A DNA stretch of 22,296 nucleotides from an uncultured Variovorax sp. (lineage in GTDB: Bacteria > Pseudomonadota > Gammaproteobacteria > Burkholderiales > Burkholderiaceae), in the NCBI GenBank assembly GCA_946478645.1, contig CAMLCW010000039.1:1-22296 (forward strand). Reading direction: 5' to 3'. Shown in pieces: positions 2,614-13,217 of this stretch. The notes under the pieces were generated by a model, which saw only the letters and a list, made by a program, of their open reading frames with translations, was not told the DNA's origin and made no database searches. Numbering within the stretch: the first letter of the stretch is position 1; each line of letters starts with the position of its first letter. Made by a program: the position numbers and the translations under genes.

Positions 2614-2700
2614 CCCAGGGCACCCGCGGAACGGGCTTCGCCCGGCCGCTGGGTGCGCTCCCCAGTGGGGGAGGCGCCGAAGGCGCTTCGGGGGGCGTTC
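2614..2700. repeat. Structured intergenic repeat, copy A
   Basis: GC-rich repeat of about 87 bases directly abutting the LysR stop codon. It holds three nested or adjacent hairpins. The first is an outer stem GCACCCGCGG / CCGCTGGGTGC with an inner CGGGC-TTC-GCCCG. The second is CTCCCC-AGT-GGGGG. The third is GCGCC-GAA-GGCGC followed by TTCGGGGGGCGTTC. Related copies occur at 22141-22236 and from 22239 to the window end, with paired differences in the stems. It is non-coding: ORFs through it are by-products of high GC. Confidence 0.85.
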
Positions 2701-3598
2701 AAGAGATGCGCGAGAGGATCAGGTCGTGCAGCGTTTGCGCGGCCACCGAGAGGCTGCCTTCGCGCCGCTGCACGAGGTAGATGGTTCGCGTCAGGCCGGG
2801 GAGCGGCAGCGGCCGGGTCGCGAGCGTATCGCGCCGGAAGTGAAACAGCGTGAGCGCCGGCACCACGCTGATGCCGATGCCGGCCTCGACCAGCCCCATG
2901 ACGGTGGCCAGGTGCTCGACCTCGAACACCGCGTTGAGCCTGAGCGGATGCAGCGCGGCGTCGAGCGACTGGCGCACGCTGCTGTTGCGCGCCATCTGGA
3001 TGAAGGGCCAGGGCGCGAGCTGACGGGCGGTGAGGCGCGGCACCGCGGCGAGCGGATGGTCCTTGCGGCACACGAGGTGGAAGCGGTCGTCGCAGAGCTT
3101 GCGCCCGCGCAGGTCGCTCGCCGCGGCCGCACCCGCGCCCGTGGCGGCGAGCGCGAAGTCGGCCTGGTGGCTGCGCAGCTGGGCGATGCATGCATCCGAC
3201 AACGCATCGTGCAGCTCGACCGTGATGCCCGGCCAGGCCTGCATGAACTCCGACAGCACCGCGGGCAGCCAGCCCGCCGCGAGCGAGGGCAGGGCCGCGA
3301 TGCTCACGCGGCCCTTGCGCCGCTCGGCATGGTCGGCGAGGTCGCCGACCGCGTCCTGCATGTCGTCGAGCAGCCGGCGCGCCGACGGCTCGAACAGGCG
3401 GCCCTCGGGCGTGAGCTGCACGCTGCGGGTGTCGCGGTCGAACAGGCGCGCGCCGAGCGTCTGCTCGAGCGTGCGGATCAGCGCGCTGAACGCGGGCTGC
3501 GAGAGGTGGCAGGTCTGCGCCGCGCGCGTGAAGTTGCGCTGGTCGGCCAGCGCCATGAAGGCGCGCAGCTGGCGGGAGGAAAGGTCGGGCGCGGGCAT
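2699..3598 (-). CDS. LysR-family transcriptional regulator
   Basis: A 299-residue protein of the usual LysR length. Residues about 5-64 form the winged helix-turn-helix (LSSRQLRAFMALADQRNFTRAAQTCHLSQPAFSALIR...LGARLFDR). The rest is a periplasmic-binding-protein-like effector domain (residues about 90-295), with features such as the AGIGISVVPAL segment near the C-terminus. It is divergent from the binding-protein/c-di-GMP operon across a 161-base gap. By LysR convention it could therefore control that operon and itself; this is inference. No Shine-Dalgarno is visible before the start at 3598, so the start rests on the HTH position. The effector is unknown. Downstream it meets the structured repeat and a terminator. 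Confidence 0.93.
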   Translation of the reverse strand: MPAPDLSSRQLRAFMALADQRNFTRAAQTCHLSQPAFSALIRTLEQTLGARLFDRDTRSVQLTPEGRLFEPSARRLLDDMQDAVGDLADHAERRKGRVSIAALPSLAAGWLPAVLSEFMQAWPGITVELHDALSDACIAQLRSHQADFALAATGAGAAAASDLRGRKLCDDRFHLVCRKDHPLAAVPRLTARQLAPWPFIQMARNSSVRQSLDAALHPLRLNAVFEVEHLATVMGLVEAGIGISVVPALTLFHFRRDTLATRPLPLPGLTRTIYLVQRREGSLSVAAQTLHDLILSRIS

Positions 3599-3759: not shown

Positions 3760-4872
3760 ATGATTCAGGCGATGAAGTCCGGCGCAGCATCTCTGGCCAG
3801 GCGACATACCCTCGGGGTGCATGTTGCCGCTCTCTTTCTGGCTATCGCGGCGACGAGCAGCGCGGCGCAGCCGTCTGCGCCCGCGTCCCGGCCCGACGTG
3901 CGGCTGCGCATCGTCGGCGGGCTGGGCGGCCTGAACCAGTACACGCGCCACGAGGCGCGGTTCTGGAACGAGGACCTGCGGCGGTTGAGCCAGGGGAAGT
4001 ACGGCGCGACCATCGTGCCGTTCAACCAGGCCGGCGTCCCGGGCCAGGAGATGCTCAACCTCATGCGGCTCGGCGTGATCCCGTTCGGCACCGCGCTGCT
4101 GAGCCAGGTCAGCAACGAGTACCCCGAGCTGGGCGCGCCCGACATCGCGGGGCTGAATCCCGACATGGCCACCCTGCGCCGGGTCATCGGCGCGTTCCGC
4201 CCCTACCTCGAGCGCACGCTGCGCGAGCGGCACGGCGTCGAGCTGCTGGCCGTGTACGTCTATCCGGCCCAGGTGATCTTCTGCAGGCAGCCGGTGAAGC
4301 AGCTGGCCGACCTGGCGGGGCGCCGCGTGCGCGTGTCGGGCAACACGCAGGCCGACTTCGTGCGTGCGCTCGGCGGCGTGCCGGTGTTCACCGAATTCAC
4401 CGAGGTCGTCGCCAACATCCAGTCGGAGAACACGCAGTGCGCGATCACGGGCGCGATGTCCGGCAACGCGCTCGGGCTGCACAAGGTGACCCAGTCGCTC
4501 TACACCATGCCCCTCAGCTGGGGCATCGCGGTGTTCGGCGCCAACACCGACGCCTGGAACGCGCTGCCGCCCGAGCTGCAGGCGCTGCTGCGGCGCGAAC
4601 TGCCGAAGCTCGAGGCCGAGGTCTGGCGCGAGTCGGAGCGCGACACCGGCCACGGCATCGCCTGCAACACGGGCGCCGACGCATGCACCTCGGGCAGCAA
4701 GGGCGCGATGGTCGAGGCGCGGCCTTCGTCCGTGGACGAGAAACGCCGGCGCGAGATCTTTGCCGGCAGCGTGCTGCCGAAATGGCTGCAGCGCTGCGGC
4801 CGGACCTGCGTCGAGGTCTGGGAGCAGACCATCGGCCCCGTGGTCGGCATCAAGGCGCCCGTCGGCCAGTGA
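3760..4872 (+). CDS. Orphan TRAP-type (DctP-family) periplasmic solute-binding protein
   Basis: A 370-residue secreted binding protein. Residues 1-37 form a Sec-type signal peptide (charged MKSGAASLARRH, a hydrophobic stretch VAALFLAIAATS, then SAAQ). The start may be 3760 or the ATG at 3772. The mature part matches the TRAP binding-protein fold: an early NQYTRHEARFWNEDL segment and the LAGRRVRVSGNTQADFVRALGGVPV segment carrying the Arg that in this family usually contacts a ligand carboxylate. Six cysteines (C175, C227, C302, C309, C346, C350) and a C-terminal stretch of about 300-355 look unusual for the family and could form disulfides. No TRAP permease genes (dctQ, dctM) are nearby. Its stop overlaps the start of a GGDEF-EAL membrane protein by four bases (GTGA), suggesting a sensory rather than transport role. 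The ligand is unknown. Confidence 0.85.
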   Translation: MIQAMKSGAASLARRHTLGVHVAALFLAIAATSSAAQPSAPASRPDVRLRIVGGLGGLNQYTRHEARFWNEDLRRLSQGKYGATIVPFNQAGVPGQEMLNLMRLGVIPFGTALLSQVSNEYPELGAPDIAGLNPDMATLRRVIGAFRPYLERTLRERHGVELLAVYVYPAQVIFCRQPVKQLADLAGRRVRVSGNTQADFVRALGGVPVFTEFTEVVANIQSENTQCAITGAMSGNALGLHKVTQSLYTMPLSWGIAVFGANTDAWNALPPELQALLRRELPKLEAEVWRESERDTGHGIACNTGADACTSGSKGAMVEARPSSVDEKRRREIFAGSVLPKWLQRCGRTCVEVWEQTIGPVVGIKAPVGQ

Positions 4873-7844
4873 ACAAGTCGCTGCCCAGCCGCATCACCAG
4901 CTTCGTCGTCGGCGTGGCGGGGCTGTTTCTTGTCGCCGTCGTGGCGGTGGCGGCCGTCATGACCTGGCAGCTGCGCGAGCGGGCGATCGGCGAGGCCGAG
5001 GCGCATGCGGTGCAGTTCATCGGCGCATCGGAAGCCGCGCTCAACCGCTCGCTGCTCGGCGTGGACGTGCTGCTCGCGGGTTTCGGGCAGTTCCTGCGCA
5101 AGTCCTCCGAGGCCACCGTCGCGCGCGACATCGCCGAGCCCGAGACCGCGCTGCTGATCGAGAACGTGGTGCGCCAGAGCCTGCTGGTGCGGTACGTCGC
5201 CTTCCTCACGCCCGGCGGCTCGGTGCTGGGCTCGTCCGATCGTCGCGGCGCGGGGCTGGCGGTGCACCTGCCCGAGCGCTTCCTGAAGGAGGTCCTCGAC
5301 CGGCCGGGCGCCATGCTCGCCATCAGCACGCCCACGGTGAGCCCGGCGACCTCGCAGCAGGTGCTGTTCTTCGCGCGCGTGCTGCGCCTGGACGATGGCA
5401 GCCGGCTGGTCGCGGTGGCCGAGGTGCAGGTCTCGATGCTCGCCACGGTCCTGGCGCAGGGCGCCAGCCTCAAGGGGCTCGAGGTGACGCTGGAGCGCGA
5501 GGGCGGCCCGCTGCTCGCGAGCATTCCGCCGCGCGACGACCTGGCCGGCCGCACGCTGACGCCGATCCTGACCGAGCAGGCGAGCGACGGCCGCCCCCGG
5601 CGCATGATGTCGCGGCTCGGCGGCAAGCCGGCCATCGTGGCGGCGCGGCCGGGGCTCTACCGGAACCTGATGATCGTCGCGAGCATCCCGATCGACGCGG
5701 CGCTCGAAGGCTGGCGCCGGGAGCGCAACGTGATCCTGAGCGCGGCGCTGGCCTTCGCGCTGCTGATCCTCGGCATCGGCTATTTCGCAATGGCGCAGCT
5801 GCGGCGCCAGTGGCGTGCCCGCACGGAGCTGCTGCGCTCCAAGGCCACGCTCGACCAGGCGCTCGAAGCGATGGTCGACGGCTTCGTGCTGCTCGACCCG
5901 CAGGACCGCGTCGTGACCTGGAACCGCCGCTTCGTCGACTACTTTCCGTGGGCCGAGCCGCTGCTCGCGCCGCTCGCGCCGTTCGAGCGCATCGACGAGG
6001 AGAACGCCCGCCACCTGCTCGCGCAGAACGACCAGGAGCTCACGATGCTCAACGGCCAGGTGATCCTCGAGGTGAAGAGCCCCACGCCCGACGGCGGCAT
6101 GGTGTGCGTCTACCGCGATGTCACCGAGAAGAAGCGCCACGTCGCCGACATCCTCGAAGGCAAGGCGCAGCTGCAGGCCACGCTCGATGCGCTGCCCGAC
6201 GTGCTGCTCGAGGCCGGCATCGACGGACGCTGCTACCGCTTCCATTCGCCGCGCCGGCCCAAGCCGTCGATCAAGGTGCGCGAGCCGGTCGGCAAGCTGA
6301 TGTCGGACCTGCTGCCGAAGAATGCCGCCGCCGAAGTGATGGTGGCGCTGCGCGATGCCTTCGAGACCGGCTTCTCCTCGGGGCGGCAGTTCGAGAACCG
6401 CGCGGCCCGCGGCACCACCTGGTTCGAGATCTCGGTCTCGCGCAAGCTGATCGGCGAGGGTGCGGCCGCGCGCTTCATCGTCATCCTGCGCGACATCACC
6501 GAGGCCAAGCTGGCCGCGCGCGAGATCGAGCACCTGGCCTTCTACGACATCCTCACCGGCCTGCCCAACCGCCGGCTGCTGCTGCACAGGCTGCAGTCCA
6601 CGGTCGACGCGAACATTCGCCGGTCGCGCCACGGGGCGCTGCTGTTCCTCGACCTCGACGACTTCAAGACGCTCAACGATGCGCTCGGCCACGCCACGGG
6701 CGATGCGCTGCTCAAGCAGGTGGCCGTGCGGCTGCAGGACGGCCTGAGCGAGGGCGGTACGGTCGCGCGGCTCGGCGGCGACGAGTTCGTGGTGCTGCTG
6801 GAGAACCTGAGCGACGACGGCGCGGTGGCCGCGATGCAGGCCAACGCGGTCGGCGAGGCCGTGCTCGCGAACATCAACCGGACCTTCCAGCTCGGCGACC
6901 ACCAGTATCACAGCACCTGCAGCATCGGCGCCGTGGTCTTCAGCGGCGCCAACCAGTCGCTCGAGGACCTGCTCAAGCAGGCCGACATCGCGATGTATTA
7001 CGCCAAGTCGGCGGGCGGCAATGCGCTGCGCTTCTTCGAAACGGCGATGCAGACGGCGATCACCGCGCGCGCCACGCTCGAGAGCGAACTGCATGCGGCC
7101 ATCGAGGGCGAGCAGTTCGTGCTGCACTACCAGAGCCAGGTCGCCGCCGACGGCCGCATCGTGGGTGCCGAGGTGCTGATCCGTTGGGAGCATCCCGCGC
7201 GCGGCCTGGTGCAGCCCGGCGGCTTCATCGAGCTGGCCGAGGAGACCGGGCTGATCGTGCCGATCGGCATGTGGGTGCTCGAGACCGCCTGCAGGCAGCT
7301 CGAGCGCTGGCGCCACGATCCCAGGCGCAGCCACCTGCGGCTCGCGGTGAACGTGAGCGCGCGCCAGTTCCGCACCGACGATTTCGTCGACCGCGTGCGC
7401 GACGTGCTGCACCGCACCGGCGCCGACCCGACGCGGCTGGAGCTCGAGCTCACCGAGACCCTGCTGCAGGAGAAGGTGGCCGACACCATCGAGAAGATGC
7501 AGGCGCTCGCGGCGCTGGGCGTGCGCTTCTCGATGGACGATTTCGGCACCGGCTATTCGTCGCTCTCGTACATGACGCAGCTGCCGCTCAACCAGATCAA
7601 GATCGACAAGTTCTTCGTGCAGAACGTCGGCGTCGACCCGAAGGTGCAGATGATCATCCAGGCCATCATCGGCATGGCGCGCAATCTCGACCTCGAGATC
7701 GTGGCGGAAGGCGTCGAGACCGAGGCGCAGTTCGCGTTCCTGCAGGCGGCCCATGGCGCGATGCTGTGCCAGGGCTACCTGTTCAGCAGGCCGGTGCCGC
7801 TCGCGCAGTTCGAGGCGCTGCTCGGCGTCGAGATGGCGGGCTGA
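4869..7844 (+). CDS. Membrane sensor GGDEF-EAL protein (c-di-GMP cyclase/phosphodiesterase)
   Basis: A 991-residue inner-membrane c-di-GMP enzyme starting at GTG 4869 inside the stop of the binding protein; translation is probably coupled. Domains: TM1 (about 10-32), a periplasmic Cache-like sensor (about 36-286), TM2 (about 288-310), PAS (about 325-430), PAS (about 432-553), GGDEF and EAL. The GGDEF motif at 636-640 is canonical, but SEGG stands where the RxxD inhibitory site would be. The EAL signature is EVL at E768, with NVSARQF, ELTE, DDFGTGYSS (D890-D891), KIDK and AEGVE all present, so the phosphodiesterase residues look intact. Either or both activities are possible; family precedent includes bifunctional enzymes and ones with one silent domain. 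The preceding gene suggests that a periplasmic binding protein provides the input. A further cyclase gene follows after 28 bases. Confidence 0.93.
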   Translation: MNKSLPSRITSFVVGVAGLFLVAVVAVAAVMTWQLRERAIGEAEAHAVQFIGASEAALNRSLLGVDVLLAGFGQFLRKSSEATVARDIAEPETALLIENVVRQSLLVRYVAFLTPGGSVLGSSDRRGAGLAVHLPERFLKEVLDRPGAMLAISTPTVSPATSQQVLFFARVLRLDDGSRLVAVAEVQVSMLATVLAQGASLKGLEVTLEREGGPLLASIPPRDDLAGRTLTPILTEQASDGRPRRMMSRLGGKPAIVAARPGLYRNLMIVASIPIDAALEGWRRERNVILSAALAFALLILGIGYFAMAQLRRQWRARTELLRSKATLDQALEAMVDGFVLLDPQDRVVTWNRRFVDYFPWAEPLLAPLAPFERIDEENARHLLAQNDQELTMLNGQVILEVKSPTPDGGMVCVYRDVTEKKRHVADILEGKAQLQATLDALPDVLLEAGIDGRCYRFHSPRRPKPSIKVREPVGKLMSDLLPKNAAAEVMVALRDAFETGFSSGRQFENRAARGTTWFEISVSRKLIGEGAAARFIVILRDITEAKLAAREIEHLAFYDILTGLPNRRLLLHRLQSTVDANIRRSRHGALLFLDLDDFKTLNDALGHATGDALLKQVAVRLQDGLSEGGTVARLGGDEFVVLLENLSDDGAVAAMQANAVGEAVLANINRTFQLGDHQYHSTCSIGAVVFSGANQSLEDLLKQADIAMYYAKSAGGNALRFFETAMQTAITARATLESELHAAIEGEQFVLHYQSQVAADGRIVGAEVLIRWEHPARGLVQPGGFIELAEETGLIVPIGMWVLETACRQLERWRHDPRRSHLRLAVNVSARQFRTDDFVDRVRDVLHRTGADPTRLELELTETLLQEKVADTIEKMQALAALGVRFSMDDFGTGYSSLSYMTQLPLNQIKIDKFFVQNVGVDPKVQMIIQAIIGMARNLDLEIVAEGVETEAQFAFLQAAHGAMLCQGYLFSRPVPLAQFEALLGVEMAG

Positions 7845-7872
7845 CCCGCCGCAGCCGACCGAGGTCCAGACG

Positions 7873-10281
7873 ATGCCCGCACGCCGCTTCCGCCTGCCCC
7901 GGCTCAGCCTGCGCGCGCGCATGTCGGCGGGCGTGGCGGCGTTCGTCTTCCTTACCGCGGTGGGCGTCACCGCCGCGGCACTGTACCTGGTCAAGCGCAG
8001 CATGCAGGCCGCCATCGTCGACGAGGAGTTCGAGCGCATCTCGCAGATCGCCGATGCGGTGGACCAGAAGTTCCGCGGCCGGCGCACGCTGCTGAAGACC
8101 TTCGGCGACAGCATCGAGAGCCATCGCCTGCAGGGCGCCGCGGGGCTGCAGCCGCTGCTCGTTTCGCACCGGGCGCTGAAGGAGGCCTTCGACAACGTGG
8201 CCATCGCCGATCGCGCGGGCGAGATCGTGGCCAACTTCAACGGCGCGCACCAGATCGGCAAGGCCAACGTGGCCGACCGCGAGTACTTCGAACGCACCGT
8301 GGCCAACAAGGCCGGCGTGATTTCGAAGCCCTTTCGCAACCGCATCAGCGGCCTGCCGCAGATCGCGATGACCGAGCCCGTGCTCGACGCCCGGGGCGAG
8401 GTGGCCTACGTCGTCTCGGCCTTCGTCAACCTCAGCGCGACCAACTTCCTCGGCGAGCTCGCGAACGTGCGCTTCGGCGGCAGCGGCTACATGTTCATCA
8501 CCAGCCTCGACGGCATCGTCATCGACGACCCCGACGAGTCGCGGCTGCTGCAGCATGCGGTGGACGGTGGCGCCAACAGCGCGGCGCTCGGGCGCGCGCT
8601 GCAGGGTTTCGAAGGCACCTTCGAGGCGCCCGACCGCGGCGGCGCACCCGGGCTCTATGCCTTCAAGCGCATCCGCGAGACCGACTGGGTGCTCGGCGCG
8701 ATGTATCCGCGCGAGGAGGCGTTCTCGCGCATTGCGCAGGTCGAGCGCTTCGCCTGGCTCGGCACCTTCCTGCTCACGCTGCTGGCCGGCGGCTTCGCGT
8801 TCGCCGCCTCGCGTGCGCAGCTTGCGCCGCTCGCGCGGCTGCGCGAGCACATGCAGGTTTCGCGCAGCGCCGGCGACTACGCGCCCATGAGGGACGCGCC
8901 GCCCAAGGACGAGGTCGGCGACCTGTCGCGCACCTTCGACCTGCTGATGCAGGAGCGCCAGGCCTCGCAGCAGAAGCTGGCCGAGAGCGAGCGCTTCCTG
9001 CGCGACGTGACCGACCACCTGCCCGCGGTGGTGGCCTACTTCGACCGCGACGACCGCTGCCTGTTCGCCAATGCGGCGGGGCTGGCGATGCGGGGGCGCA
9101 CGCGCGCCGACATCGGCCGCATGACCATGCGCGATGCGCTGCCCGACGCGGTCTACCGCCAGCTCGAACCGCAGATCGCGAAAGTGCTCCAGGGCATTCC
9201 GTCGCGCACCGAAGGCACCTACGAGCGGCGCGGCCGGGAGGGCTTCTTCGAATGCCACCTGGTGCCCGACCTGCGCGACGGCGGCGAGTTGGCCGGCTAC
9301 TACGTGATGACCTTCGACGTCACCCAGCGCAAGCAGGCCGAGATGCGCAGCGCCGAGAGCGAGCGGCGCCTGCGCGGCCTGACCGACGGCGTGCCGGCGC
9401 TGCTGACCGAAGTCGACCTCGACGAACGCGTGGTGTTCTGCAACGGCCGGTACCGGACCTGGCTCGGCGTGGCGCCCGAGGCGCTGGTGGGCCGGCACCT
9501 GCGCGAAGCGCTCGGCGAGGCGCAGTACGCGCAGCGCAAGCCCTTCCTCGCGCGCGCCTTCGCGGGCGAGGTGGTGAGCTTCGAGCAGCCGGCCAGCCTG
9601 GTGATCGGCGAGCGCGTCCTGCAGACGACCTACCTGCCGCACATGGACGCCGAGGGTGCGGTGGTCGGCCTGTACATCCTGGCCAACGACGTGACCGAGC
9701 TCAAGCGCCAGCAGATGCAGCTCGATGCGCTGGCGCGCGAGGATGCGCTGACGGCGCTGCCGAACCGCCGCTCGTTCGAGGAGCACCTGCGCGATGCCCT
9801 CGCGCGTTCGCGGCGCTCGGGCCTCGCGGTCTGCCTGCTGTTCCTCGACGTCGACTACTTCAAGACCATCAACGATTCGCTCGGCCATGCGGCCGGCGAC
9901 GCCGTGCTGAAGGAGTTCGGGCGCCGGCTGCGCCAGAGCGTGCGCGAGACCGACATGGCGGCGCGCTACGCGGGCGATGAGTTCGTGATCCTGCTCGAGG
10001 CGCTGTCCGATCCGGCCGAGGGGCCGCACGTGGCGGGCAAGGTGCTGGCGGCGATGCGCCCGGAGTTCGTGCTGCCGGGCCGCAGCCTGCAGGTGACGAC
10101 GAGCATCGGCATCGCGGTGTCGGAGCCCGAGGAAGACCTCGTGTCGCTGCTCGCGCGCGCCGACACCGCGCTCTACGTGGCCAAGAAGGAAGGCCGCAAC
10201 CGCTTCATGGTGGCCGCGCCCCGCTCGCCATCGCCCGGCGGCAGCCCGCAGTGGCCGCGCCAGGAGCCTTCGGGCGGATGA
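7873..10281 (+). CDS. Membrane diguanylate cyclase with Cache, HAMP and PAS domains (AGDEF)
   Basis: An 802-residue protein that would make c-di-GMP from two GTP. ATG 7873 is preceded by GAGG; an upstream in-frame extension lies within the previous gene and is unlikely. Domains: TM1 (about 17-40), a periplasmic double-Cache sensor (about 45-290, with the FGGSGYMFITSLDGIVIDDPDE signature), TM2 (about 293-315), HAMP-like (about 316-375), two PAS domains (about 385-510 and 515-640), and a C-terminal GGDEF domain. The catalytic signature is AGDEF starting at A700, a variant known to be active in some cyclases. RETD at 691-694 fits the RxxD product-inhibition site at the right distance. There is no EAL domain. 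It is third in the operon with the binding protein and GGDEF-EAL protein, so both enzymes probably serve one c-di-GMP circuit. Confidence 0.92.
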   Translation: MPARRFRLPRLSLRARMSAGVAAFVFLTAVGVTAAALYLVKRSMQAAIVDEEFERISQIADAVDQKFRGRRTLLKTFGDSIESHRLQGAAGLQPLLVSHRALKEAFDNVAIADRAGEIVANFNGAHQIGKANVADREYFERTVANKAGVISKPFRNRISGLPQIAMTEPVLDARGEVAYVVSAFVNLSATNFLGELANVRFGGSGYMFITSLDGIVIDDPDESRLLQHAVDGGANSAALGRALQGFEGTFEAPDRGGAPGLYAFKRIRETDWVLGAMYPREEAFSRIAQVERFAWLGTFLLTLLAGGFAFAASRAQLAPLARLREHMQVSRSAGDYAPMRDAPPKDEVGDLSRTFDLLMQERQASQQKLAESERFLRDVTDHLPAVVAYFDRDDRCLFANAAGLAMRGRTRADIGRMTMRDALPDAVYRQLEPQIAKVLQGIPSRTEGTYERRGREGFFECHLVPDLRDGGELAGYYVMTFDVTQRKQAEMRSAESERRLRGLTDGVPALLTEVDLDERVVFCNGRYRTWLGVAPEALVGRHLREALGEAQYAQRKPFLARAFAGEVVSFEQPASLVIGERVLQTTYLPHMDAEGAVVGLYILANDVTELKRQQMQLDALAREDALTALPNRRSFEEHLRDALARSRRSGLAVCLLFLDVDYFKTINDSLGHAAGDAVLKEFGRRLRQSVRETDMAARYAGDEFVILLEALSDPAEGPHVAGKVLAAMRPEFVLPGRSLQVTTSIGIAVSEPEEDLVSLLARADTALYVAKKEGRNRFMVAAPRSPSPGGSPQWPRQEPSGG

Positions 10282-10423: not shown

Positions 10424-12352
10424 ATGGCAGATTTCGGCGGCGGGAGTGCCCCCTTGAACCAACGCACTCTGACCGACGCCGACTACCGGCTGATGGTCGA
10501 CACGGTCATCGACTACGCGATCGCCGTGCTCGACCCCGGGGGCATCGTCATCAGCTGGAACGATGGCGCACGCCTGCTCAATGGCTACGAAGCGCCCGAG
10601 GTGCTCGGACGCCACTTCTCGCTCTTCTACCCGAGCGAGACGCTCGACCAGAGCCTGCCCGAGAAAGAACTCGAGACCGCGCGCCAGGCCGGGCGCGTCG
10701 AGCAGGAAGGCTGGCGGCTGCGCAAGGACGGCACCCGGTTCTGGGCCAGCGTCGTCCTCACCCGCATGAGCGGGCGCAACGGCGAGGTGCGCGGCTTCTC
10801 GCTGATCTGCCGCGACCTGAGCGAGCGCCGCCGGCAGGACGAGGCGCTGCGCATGAGCGAGGAGCGCTTCCGGCTGCTGGTGGAGGGCGTGAAGGACTAT
10901 GCGATCTTCATGCTCGACCCGGGCGGCCACGTGGTGAGCTGGAACCTCGGTGCGCAGAAGAACAAGGGCTACGAGGCCTCGGAGATCATCGGCCAGCATT
11001 TCTCGACGTTCTATCCGCCCGAAGTCGCCGCCACCGGCTGGCCTGAGCTCGAACTGCGCCATGCGCTGCGCGACGGACGCTTCGAGGACGAGGGCTGGCG
11101 CGTCCGCAAGGACGGCAGCCGCTTCTGGGCCAGCGTGGTCATTACTGCGCTGCACGACGCGAGCGGCCGGCATCGCGGCTTTGCCAAGGTTACGCGCGAC
11201 CTGACCGAGCGGCGCCGCGTGACGGCGCTCGAGGACGAAGGGCGCCGCGTCACGAACTTCCTCGCGATGCTCGGGCACGAACTGCGCAACCCGCTCGCGC
11301 CGATCTCCAACGCGCTCGAGCTGCTCAAGCGCGAGAAGACCGAATCGGCCGTGGTGCTGCACACCCGCGACATCATCGGACGGCAGCTTCGGCAGATGAC
11401 CCGCCTCGTCGACGACCTGCTCGACGTGGGACGCATCACCAGCGGCAAGGTCCATATCGAGAGCAAGCCGGTCCGGCTGCGCGACGCGATCGCCCAGGGC
11501 ATCGAGGCGGTACGGCCACTGATCGCGAGCAAGTCGCAGACCCTGCATTTCCCCCTCGGCGAAGCCGACCCGTGGATTGCAGGCGACAACGCGCGCGTAA
11601 TCCAGATCGTGAGCAACCTGATCCACAACGCGGCCAAATTCACCCAGAACGGCGGCAACATCCATGTGTCGCTGTCCCAGGCCGGCACCGACGCCGACAT
11701 CAGCGTGCGCGACGACGGTCCCGGCATCCAGCCCAAGGACCTGCAGCGCATCTTCGACCTGTTCGTGCAGGGCGAGCAGGACATGGCCAGGTCGCAGGGC
11801 GGCCTGGGTCTGGGGCTCAGCCTGGTGCAGCAGCTGGTCACGCTGCACGGCGGGCGGGTCAGCGCGTTCAGCACCGGCCGGGCCGGCGAGGGCAGCGAGT
11901 TCGTGGTGCAGTTCCCGACCACGCCGGCGCCCGCGACCATGCTCGAGTCCGAACCCCGTCCCGTGGGCGAGCAGCGCGTGCTGGTGGTGGACGACAACAA
12001 GGACGCCGCCGAGACCATGGCGCTGCTGCTCGAGGCGCTGGGCTACCGCTCGAGCATCGCGCACGACGGGCTCAGTGCGATCAAGGCCGTCAAGGCGCAG
12101 GACCCCGACGTGGTGCTGCTGGACATCGGCCTGCCCGACCTGAGCGGCCATGAAGTGGCACGGCGGCTGCGCGCCGAGCTGGTCAATCCGCCGGCGCTGA
12201 TCGCGATCACCGGCTACGGGCAGGCGAGCGACCGCGACACCAGCCTGGAGGTGGGCTTCAAGGCCCACATGACGAAGCCGGTCGACGTAGACCGGCTCTC
12301 GGCGCTGCTCGAGCGCCTGCTGGCGCCCAAGACAGGCGGCGACGCCGCTTAG
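10424..12352 (+). CDS. Cytoplasmic hybrid histidine kinase: PAS-PAS-HisKA-HATPase-REC
   Basis: A 642-residue soluble two-component sensor. Its start ATG follows GGAGGAG (10409-10415) at good spacing. No transmembrane segment is seen. Two PAS domains (about 20-135 and 150-265) are strikingly similar to each other, sharing DYAI..LDPGG, SWN.GA, HFS.FYP and RFWASVV, so one arose by duplication. The HisKA box LGHELRNPLAPI carries the phosphorylated H285. The ATPase boxes NLIHNAAKF, DDGPGI and GGLGLGL follow. A C-terminal receiver (about 513-635) has VLVVDDNKD, the acceptor D567 in LLDIGLPDLSG, and the late Lys in MTKPVD. No DNA-binding output is present, so phosphate probably passes to a separate partner or the receiver regulates the kinase. 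It lies 142 bases after the c-di-GMP operon in the same direction; a link is possible but unproven. Confidence 0.93.
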   Translation: MADFGGGSAPLNQRTLTDADYRLMVDTVIDYAIAVLDPGGIVISWNDGARLLNGYEAPEVLGRHFSLFYPSETLDQSLPEKELETARQAGRVEQEGWRLRKDGTRFWASVVLTRMSGRNGEVRGFSLICRDLSERRRQDEALRMSEERFRLLVEGVKDYAIFMLDPGGHVVSWNLGAQKNKGYEASEIIGQHFSTFYPPEVAATGWPELELRHALRDGRFEDEGWRVRKDGSRFWASVVITALHDASGRHRGFAKVTRDLTERRRVTALEDEGRRVTNFLAMLGHELRNPLAPISNALELLKREKTESAVVLHTRDIIGRQLRQMTRLVDDLLDVGRITSGKVHIESKPVRLRDAIAQGIEAVRPLIASKSQTLHFPLGEADPWIAGDNARVIQIVSNLIHNAAKFTQNGGNIHVSLSQAGTDADISVRDDGPGIQPKDLQRIFDLFVQGEQDMARSQGGLGLGLSLVQQLVTLHGGRVSAFSTGRAGEGSEFVVQFPTTPAPATMLESEPRPVGEQRVLVVDDNKDAAETMALLLEALGYRSSIAHDGLSAIKAVKAQDPDVVLLDIGLPDLSGHEVARRLRAELVNPPALIAITGYGQASDRDTSLEVGFKAHMTKPVDVDRLSALLERLLAPKTGGDAA

Positions 12353-12365
12353 GAGCCTGTCGGGC

Positions 12366-13217
12366 TCAGCCCGCGTGCGGCGGCTCGACCGGCAGCGCGC
12401 GCTTGTGCGCGCTCTTGCGGTGCGTGGCCAGGATGATGTCGCGCGCCGCGGCCGCGATCGGCTTGCCTTCGAGGAAGTCGTCGATCTGTTCGTAGCTGAC
12501 GCCGAAGGCGTCCTCGTCGGGCTTCTGCGGCACCAGCGATTCGAGGTCGGCCGTGGGCACCTTGAAGACCAGCTCCTGCGGCGCACCGAGCGCTTGCGCG
12601 AGCGCGCGCACGCGGCGCTTGTTGAGGCCGCTGAGCGGCGTCACGTCGGCCGCGCCGTCGCCGAACTTGGTGAAGAAGCCCATCAGCGCCTCGGCCGCGT
12701 GGTCGGTGCCGATGACGATGCCGTCGTGCGCGCCGGCCACCGCGAACTGCGCGATCATGCGCTGGCGCGCCTTGATGTTGCCGAGCACGAAGTCCTCGTG
12801 CGCGGCATCGCGGAAGCCGAGCTCGCCGGCCTTCAGCGCCGCGAGCATGGCGTCGGCGGCGGGCCGGATGTCGACCGTGAGCGTGCGGTCGGGCACGATC
12901 ACCTCGAGCGAGCGCTGGGCCTCGGCTTCGTCCTTCTGCACGCCGTAGGGCAGGCGCATCGCGATGAACGTGGCGGCATGGCCTTCGGCGCGCAGCCGTT
13001 CGACCGCGCGCTGCGCGAGGCAGCCCGCGACCAGCGAATCGACGCCGCCGCTGATGCCGAGCACCAGCGCCTTGAGCCCCGTGCCGCGCAGGTAGCCGGC
13101 CAGGAACGCCACGCGCCGCTCGACCTCGGCGGCCGCATCGAACACCGGCGCCACGTTCAGCGCCGCGATGATCTCGCGCTGCCTGGCGTCCACGGCAGCA
13201 AGTTCGCCATCACTCAT
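12366..13217 (-). CDS. nadE: Ammonia-dependent NAD+ synthetase
   Basis: A 283-residue cytoplasmic enzyme that makes NAD+ from nicotinic acid adenine dinucleotide, ATP and ammonia, the last step of NAD biosynthesis. The adenylation P-loop SGGVDS is at residues 56-61. Other NadE signatures are [48 protein letters not shown] (shared metal and substrate loop) and KVPTADLE. It lacks an N-terminal nitrilase-like glutaminase domain, so it uses free ammonia like the E. coli enzyme. A good AAGGAG sits before the start at 13217. It begins 30 bases after pldA and probably ends the rep/lipoprotein/pldA/nadE transcript. It converges tail-to-tail with the kinase gene, leaving only 13 bases between stop codons. 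Confidence 0.97.

Follow-up and report, generated by a model that had tools for sequence, protein, structure and literature searches.

A TRAP-type binding protein paired with a membrane GGDEF-EAL receptor in Variovorax: a probable two-protein periplasmic sensor

The binding protein gene and its receptor

The window analysed here, a 22,296-nucleotide stretch of contig CAMLCW010000039.1 (assembly GCA_946478645.1) from an uncultured Variovorax sp., carries a gene for a solute-binding protein (SBP) of the DctP family, the class of tripartite ATP-independent periplasmic (TRAP) transporters, directly upstream of a gene for a membrane receptor with GGDEF and EAL domains, and the two proteins probably form a periplasmic sensor acting on cyclic di-GMP (c-di-GMP). 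The SBP gene (3760-4872, forward strand) runs from an ATG at 3760 to a TGA at 4872 and encodes 370 amino acids, assigned to the family by Pfam, NCBIfam and an AlphaFold model, with no adjacent permease gene. The two genes share the four bases GTGA (4869-4872, forward strand, read directly), within which the GTG at 4869-4871 is the receptor start codon; the receptor stop ends at 7844. A preceding interpretation made from the DNA alone, hereafter the sequence-only reading, had described an orphan DctP gene overlapping by four bases with a GGDEF-EAL gene, and its coordinates proved exact; in addition, a search with three query proteins at E 1e-3 gave no match to DctQ or DctM anywhere in the window.

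The receptor (4869-7844, forward strand; 991 amino acids) consists, according to Pfam, a structural model and motif searches, of a dCache-like periplasmic domain, PAS_7, PAS_4, a GGDEF domain (residues 557-718, positions 6537-7022, Pfam) and an EAL domain (residues 740-975, positions 7086-7793, Pfam), all on the forward strand. It possesses a GGDEF motif, an EVL motif in the EAL position and every remaining EAL motif that was searched for, and a motif search found no RxxD I-site ahead of the GGDEF domain. The periplasmic sensor domain, approximately residues 36-285 (4974-5723, forward strand), is delimited by the model and is the predicted docking partner of the SBP; together with its two membrane helices, it is the part common to GGDEF-EAL receptors and to the kinase receptors described below. 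Its Pfam dCache_1 score of 19.4 bits lies under the cut-off of 45, as does the higher score of a relative at locus L046 (41.7 bits). A model of receptor residues 1-325 built from 40 sequences (predicted local distance difference test score, pLDDT, 85) places the domain between two long helices, and its best match in the PDB is 3lif, the extracellular domain of a putative histidine kinase (TMt 0.80). There were 176 PDB matches at E of 0.001 or less, and many of the 50 listed are sensor domains of chemoreceptors or kinases, which we take to be of the double-Cache type. On the strength of this model, the periplasmic domain is read here as a double Cache.

Distribution of the pair and exchange of receptor output

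A scan of a species-genome collection with the window SBP, which recovers only relatives sharing short peptide patterns, yielded 67 homologous SBP loci, of which 42 have the SBP gene adjacent to a receptor gene and 24 are followed directly by DctM, with none showing both partners; the remaining locus (L031) is cut by a contig end. The search for DctP genes without permease beside such a receptor, proposed in the sequence-only reading, thus returned a pairing that is far from confined to one strain and that spans Beta- and Alphaproteobacteria. Judged by tblastn with two DctM queries over flanks of up to 10 kb, shorter near contig ends, none of the 42 receptor-linked loci has a DctM match, DctA-type and other transporters not having been sought. 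The gene order is reversed at L021, and the overlap of four bases recurs in 27 of the 42 pairs measured (43 including the window, minus L021), under a start-codon choice rule that favours overlap.

In a maximum-likelihood tree of 68 SBPs, coupling to receptor or permease changes only once (support 98/94; recovered in 98% of 200 bootstrap trees), as compared to a mean of 19.9 changes when the labels were shuffled, and none of 500 shuffles was as low. Because the tree is unrooted, gain of a receptor and loss of a permease are not told apart by it. The alignment of the SBPs holds 48 of these 68 sequences, and that of the receptors 40 of 43.

The cytoplasmic part of the receptor follows a different course. 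By motif, 40 of the 43 paired receptors could be classed, 26 as GGDEF/EAL and 14 as kinases; the count leaves out L010 and L043, in which a contig end cuts the receptor, and L021, for which the motif pattern failed and tblastn indicates a kinase. Pfam confirms a kinase output in L046, kinase-REC in L016, L032 and L040, and kinase-REC-Hpt in L033, and also assigns GGDEF-EAL to the receptor of Ancylobacter (L039), an alphaproteobacterium, and to that of L014, which lacks PAS. On the SBP tree, two changes of output type are needed. That the SBP stays with its receptor while the output is exchanged suggests that the job of the pair is periplasmic, and this is the strongest argument that the sequences offer. 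Fusion of the two proteins was not seen, PF03480 being absent from the Pfam domains of the 120 listed receptor homologues (of 556).

Surveys of whole genomes bear on how strictly the partners are associated. Sensor and SBP profiles were run against an even sample of 200 genomes from the family to which V. paradoxus NBRC 15149 belongs, at least three of which (G001, G005 and G008) had also supplied profile sequences, and gave 34 close sensor matches (E below 1e-50), 20 distant ones (1e-20 to 1e-33) and 53 SBP genes, the split matches of G075 (sensor) and G017 (SBP) each being counted once. An SBP of this family adjoins 31 of the 34 close receptors and none of the 20 distant ones, a comparison which, like those for the Alphaproteobacteria and the order, scores the top candidates of a first look, such that absences are no proof. 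Among the upstream same-strand neighbours of the 20 distant receptors, judged by eye, there was no other binding protein. The 22 surveyed SBPs without a receptor comprise 21 beside DctM and one (L143) at a contig end. The SBP gene of one pair, at G017:C1:2229261-2230273, was matched as two pieces, apparently in different reading frames.

Outside the family, neighbours were judged by the SBP-family profile within 1.5 kb. The 385 alphaproteobacterial genomes searched yielded 17 receptor loci, with a family SBP at five of them, including four of the best five; the exception among these five (L111, in wider view L145) has instead a divergently transcribed gene for a Peripla_BP_6 SBP (L145:4973-6226, reverse strand; 280 bits) adjoining a kinase-type receptor (L145:6476-8752, forward strand). 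In 300 genomes of the order, the SBP stands at two of six receptor loci, both in genomes already covered (G001 and G101). The three close receptors of the family survey that lack a DctP partner have other genes before them: at L087 and L088 an ABC-type SBP of the SBP_bac_8 family (L087:4565-5983 and L088:4715-5977) is joined to the receptor by the same four-base overlap, and a TctC gene (Pfam 243.5 bits) precedes the L089 receptor by 323 bases. TctC genes can be very numerous in this group, with 100 in C. testosteroni CNB-2 (PMC9602780, in part), and the L089 case was not counted as a pair, given this abundance and the distance.

The sequence-only reading had joined to the pair a third gene, a Cache/HAMP/PAS cyclase 28 bases further on, as a unit with two c-di-GMP enzymes. 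The gap of 28 bases between the receptor stop and the ATG at 7873 is correct, and the protein encoded at 7873-10281 (forward strand) does contain dCache_1 (47.7 bits), PAS_4 twice and GGDEF by Pfam, with an AGDEF motif and an RxxD site, but its HAMP match, at 22.3 bits, is under the cut-off of 25. The larger claim fell away, since the gene is a lineage-specific neighbour. It follows the pair at six of nine Variovorax loci (L001, L002, L004, L005, L007 and L009), while the pair occurs without it at L003 and L006 and L008 has another GGDEF gene, and matches over the sensor part of the third protein came from Variovorax loci only. The conserved unit is the pair of SBP and receptor, and the third gene is a variable Variovorax neighbour. 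As a separate observation, genes for EamA-type transporters were seen repeatedly, a few kb or less from receptor-linked pairs, across several lineages (L011, L014, L015, L018, L021, L026, L027, L033 and L035-L038).

The binding protein and its transporter relatives

The SBP matches Pfam DctP (PF03480) at 57.6 bits, above the cut-off of 23.4, and this is its sole Pfam match at E 0.001, so that it does not belong to the ATP-binding cassette (ABC) polyamine class of NspS-type sensors. It also exceeds the cut-off of NCBIfam TRAP_S1 (87.2 bits against 50) and falls short of that of TIGR00787 dctP (44.8 bits against 175), which together mark it as a divergent DctP; its nearest named homologues are from Variovorax. 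The AlphaFold model, based on 48 sequences (pLDDT 92), has the TRAP SBP fold, with 4n4u (BB0719 of Bordetella bronchiseptica) as its best PDB match (TMt 0.89) and 2pfy (DctP7, pyroglutamate) as the next (TMt 0.83).

Among the 48 aligned SBPs, receptor-linked and permease-linked alike, R191 is invariant, and each of the three solved relatives compared has an arginine at the aligned place; this position is presumably the contact with the ligand carboxylate, as for R147 of SiaP, and its invariance indicates that ligand binding is probably kept. The stretch YPAQVIFC is likewise invariant among the 48, is aligned to FPHQVIF of 4n4u and WPPQGIY of DctP7, and has as counterparts outside this set YPAQVLFC in L113, YPAQVMFC in L114 and a GPQ-type sequence in L080-L086. 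The SBPs of L080-L086 had been flagged as containing one internal stop codon. Selenocysteine was rejected as an explanation of the single TGA, since in tblastn of L080-L085 the aligned protein is free of stops, and the TAA flagged in L086 likewise lies outside the aligned part. Sixteen positions discriminate the receptor-linked from the permease-linked SBPs (34 versus 13 non-redundant sequences, with L057 and near-copies left out), among them 157, 161, 166, 188, 208, 240, 255, 259 and 330; position 240 is L in 34/34 of the former and W in 13/13 of the latter. Judging from the alignment, the pocket is probably kept between both groups, and the ligand class may be the same.

The permease-linked relatives belong to the same SBP family, with R191 and YPAQVIFC shared across the 48 aligned sequences, but differ in that the SBP stands in an operon with DctQ and DctM, often with catabolic genes, where the window has the receptor. 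These neighbours were identified by running Pfam for eight proteins of permease-linked loci, along with two EamA proteins of receptor-linked ones, and were followed by tblastn. Among the 41 permease-linked loci, 27 have a member of the D-Glu_cyclase family, 26 DUF2848 and 12 an amidase match, and LysR or GntR genes occur too; tblastn found neither the D-Glu_cyclase family nor DUF2848 at any of the 42 receptor-linked loci. TRAP operons of this kind (L044, L045, L048, L061, L070-L075 and others) were seen in Alpha- and Betaproteobacteria and in Thermodesulfobacteriota, and a weak amidase match (26-32% identity) lies about 4 kb from the SBP at eight Variovorax receptor loci. The D-Glu_cyclase family has been linked with 5-oxoproline. 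Taken with the family name and the DctP7 relative, this leads to a guess that the ligand is 5-oxoproline or another lactam.

A probable co-sensor and its alternatives

The pair is real, conserved and associated well beyond chance, and the explanation that fits it best is a co-sensor derived from a family of transport proteins. In the arrangement considered quite probable, a transport-type SBP has become the ligand-loaded partner of a membrane receptor: the SBP would capture a small ligand, presumably of the carboxylate type, and in one of its states, open or closed, would dock on the dCache domain, and docking would shift the balance between c-di-GMP synthesis by the GGDEF domain and breakdown by the EAL domain, with a sign of response that is conjectural. 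The direction of change was probably from transport to sensing, since beyond the receptor-linked group its nearest relatives are SBPs of transporters. The claim of the sequence-only reading that an orphan DctP protein and a GGDEF-EAL receptor make up a sensing unit is thus upheld by a pairing that is widespread, excludes the permease and persists through changes of output.

It is unlikely, by comparison, that the SBP has kept a role in uptake, working with a TRAP permease whose genes lie at another place, with a receptor that senses the same nutrient alone by its dCache domain and is merely co-regulated. SBPs can work in trans, and in V. paradoxus NBRC 15149 one DctM gene lacks an adjacent DctP gene, both of which speak for such a scheme. 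That genome gave 19 matches to DctP and 17 to DctM, the latter read as 15 DctM genes; with pairing assigned by gene places, 14 of the 15 have their own adjacent DctP, leaving five orphan DctP genes besides the solitary DctM. A distant permease pair clearly using this SBP, which the sequence-only reading had named as evidence that would count against a sensor, is therefore possible but is not suggested. Uptake is further disfavoured by the separation of receptor-linked and permease-linked SBPs on the two sides of one branch, and by the group-specific residues (such as position 240), which suggest a changed surface or pocket.

Two of the five orphan DctP genes adjoin GGDEF genes, namely the one studied here and one of a different subfamily (L133), and chance adjacency is unlikely given that the genome has only 10 GGDEF matches over the cut-off. 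The second orphan lies directly before a gene for a HAMP-GGDEF-EAL membrane protein (L133:5672-8912, and L134:5769-9138 in strain ISL-81), with no DctM nearby and, in L133, with a REC-PAS-GGDEF-EAL gene preceding it. Its receptor has a match at 1e-8 in 3 of the 200 family genomes, and a close one only in G001 (80% identity).

Several observations weigh against a co-sensor and lend themselves to other explanations. Direct binding of ligands by dCache domains is frequent, as described in part of PMC10104139, which favours uptake with an independent receptor and implies that the SBP might be dispensable to signalling. About 4 kb upstream of the close receptor L089, on the strand of its gene, lies a DctM match, and L146:6246-8996 (the wider view of L129, third best in the order) is a receptor without an SBP. 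It is enclosed by the SDR and EamA genes also seen in L015, and these leave no space for an SBP; L146 is likely a natural loss of the SBP. A warning from the tree program concerned the long branch of L046, which may be misplaced; SBP trees without L046, without L057 (support 100/99) or without L046, L057 and L031 each retain a single change. Distances of SBP and sensor correlate (r 0.93, 43 pairs), but shared species history suffices to explain this, and the mirror-tree value was dropped as proof of partnership. A further comparison speaks for docking: were the sensor domain constrained by a docked SBP, it should drift in receptors lacking a DctP partner. Sensor identity was accordingly regressed on output identity for 17 paired receptors (136 pairs; drawn from 26 DctP-partnered GGDEF/EAL receptors), and four unpaired ones were added: the latter have residuals of -0.071 (L146), -0.082 (L087), -0.053 (L088) and -0.089 (L089), and the paired ones range from -0.054 to +0.031. 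The direction fits, the unpaired sensors having diverged beyond what their outputs predict, but the residuals overlap, Pseudacidovorax receptors with an SBP reaching -0.054 (L022), -0.048 (L023) and -0.048 (L029), and relatedness is not corrected.

Still less likely than uptake is an SBP that acts as a sink or antagonist, competing with the dCache domain for ligand or, when it is empty and only then, blocking the receptor. Such a role would produce an identical gene arrangement, and the present data do not separate this possibility from docking of a loaded SBP, although a pairing kept across exchanged outputs would favour docking over depletion. That the neighbourhood is incidental, a product of operon history with genes that do not work together, is very improbable: the variation of the third and flanking genes by strain, and the L146 receptor, would be consistent with it, but the pair is kept across Beta- and Alphaproteobacteria despite changed flanks and outputs, and the contrast between close and distant receptors noted above would be hard to account for.

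A broader version of the co-sensor, possible yet distinctly speculative, is that the receptor family is a two-sided adaptor. Its dCache scaffold would accept unrelated SBP classes (mostly DctP, SBP_bac_8 in L087 and L088, possibly TctC in L089, and Peripla_BP_6 in L145) and would drive GGDEF-EAL, PAS-GGDEF-EAL, kinase, kinase-REC and kinase-REC-Hpt outputs, DctP having been taken once from a transport and catabolic operon with the D-Glu_cyclase family, an amidase and DUF2848; these neighbours and DctP7 might then hint at a lactam signal such as 5-oxoproline.

Known systems and neighbouring genes

Dedicated SBPs are encoded beside membrane kinases in the LuxP-LuxQ, TorT-TorS, BctC-BctE and AioX-AioS systems, which differ from the window pair in using other SBP classes and in lacking a c-di-GMP output. 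Within the DctP family, DctB of B. subtilis is an example of a co-receptor. Passages of PMC6978683 describe it as acting on the membrane kinase DctS together with DctA, so that the statement of the sequence-only reading that no TRAP-class example was known to it proved too strong. The likeness, which for the window family is one of gene pairing, would lie in an SBP working as co-receptor with a membrane kinase, an output also found among members of the window family; the difference is that the transporter DctA is part of that sensing unit and the output is a kinase, whereas the window has no adjacent DctM and a GGDEF-EAL output.

Action of SBPs on chemoreceptors, kinases and c-di-GMP enzymes is an accepted mechanism, with at least 13 SBP families reported to bind receptor domains (PMC9602780, in part). 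The c-di-GMP example is NspS-MbaA of Vibrio cholerae, in which NspS loaded with ligand is considered to act on MbaA, the two interacting via the periplasmic domain of the latter, and homologues of which have been studied in Sinorhizobium meliloti (passages of PMC8079147; PMC9993111). As in the window, an SBP gene stands directly upstream of a membrane GGDEF-EAL gene, and the same passages give MbaA an EVL motif like that of the window receptor; NspS, however, is described there as an ABC-type SBP homologue for polyamines (PMC8079147; PMC9993111), unlike the DctP-class window protein. No example of a TRAP-class SBP with a c-di-GMP output turned up in listings of open-licence papers. A word search of the main text of a review of c-di-GMP sensing (PMC8846402) gave no hit for DctP, a silence that weighs little since NspS is equally absent from it. 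The class of mechanism is known, while the combination of the TRAP class with c-di-GMP and the evolutionary trail appear new.

If the co-sensor is correct, control of c-di-GMP by an external SBP extends to the TRAP class. One SBP family divides on the tree by a single split, its members standing either with a permease gene or with a receptor gene, and the residues specific to each group can be put to test. Exchange of the output domain, and perhaps also of the input protein, on one receptor scaffold during evolution would also allow the docking rule to be tested through natural partners.

Among the flanking genes, the divergent LysR-type regulator at 2699-3598 (reverse strand, Pfam) accompanies the pair at 8 of the 9 Variovorax loci and is a candidate local regulator. 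A hybrid kinase with PAS-PAS-HisKA-HATPase-REC architecture (10424-12352, forward strand, Pfam) lies downstream of the pair in 8 of 9 Variovorax loci, and is followed in the window by an ordinary neighbour, NAD+ synthase (12366-13217, reverse strand; NCBIfam 377 bits).

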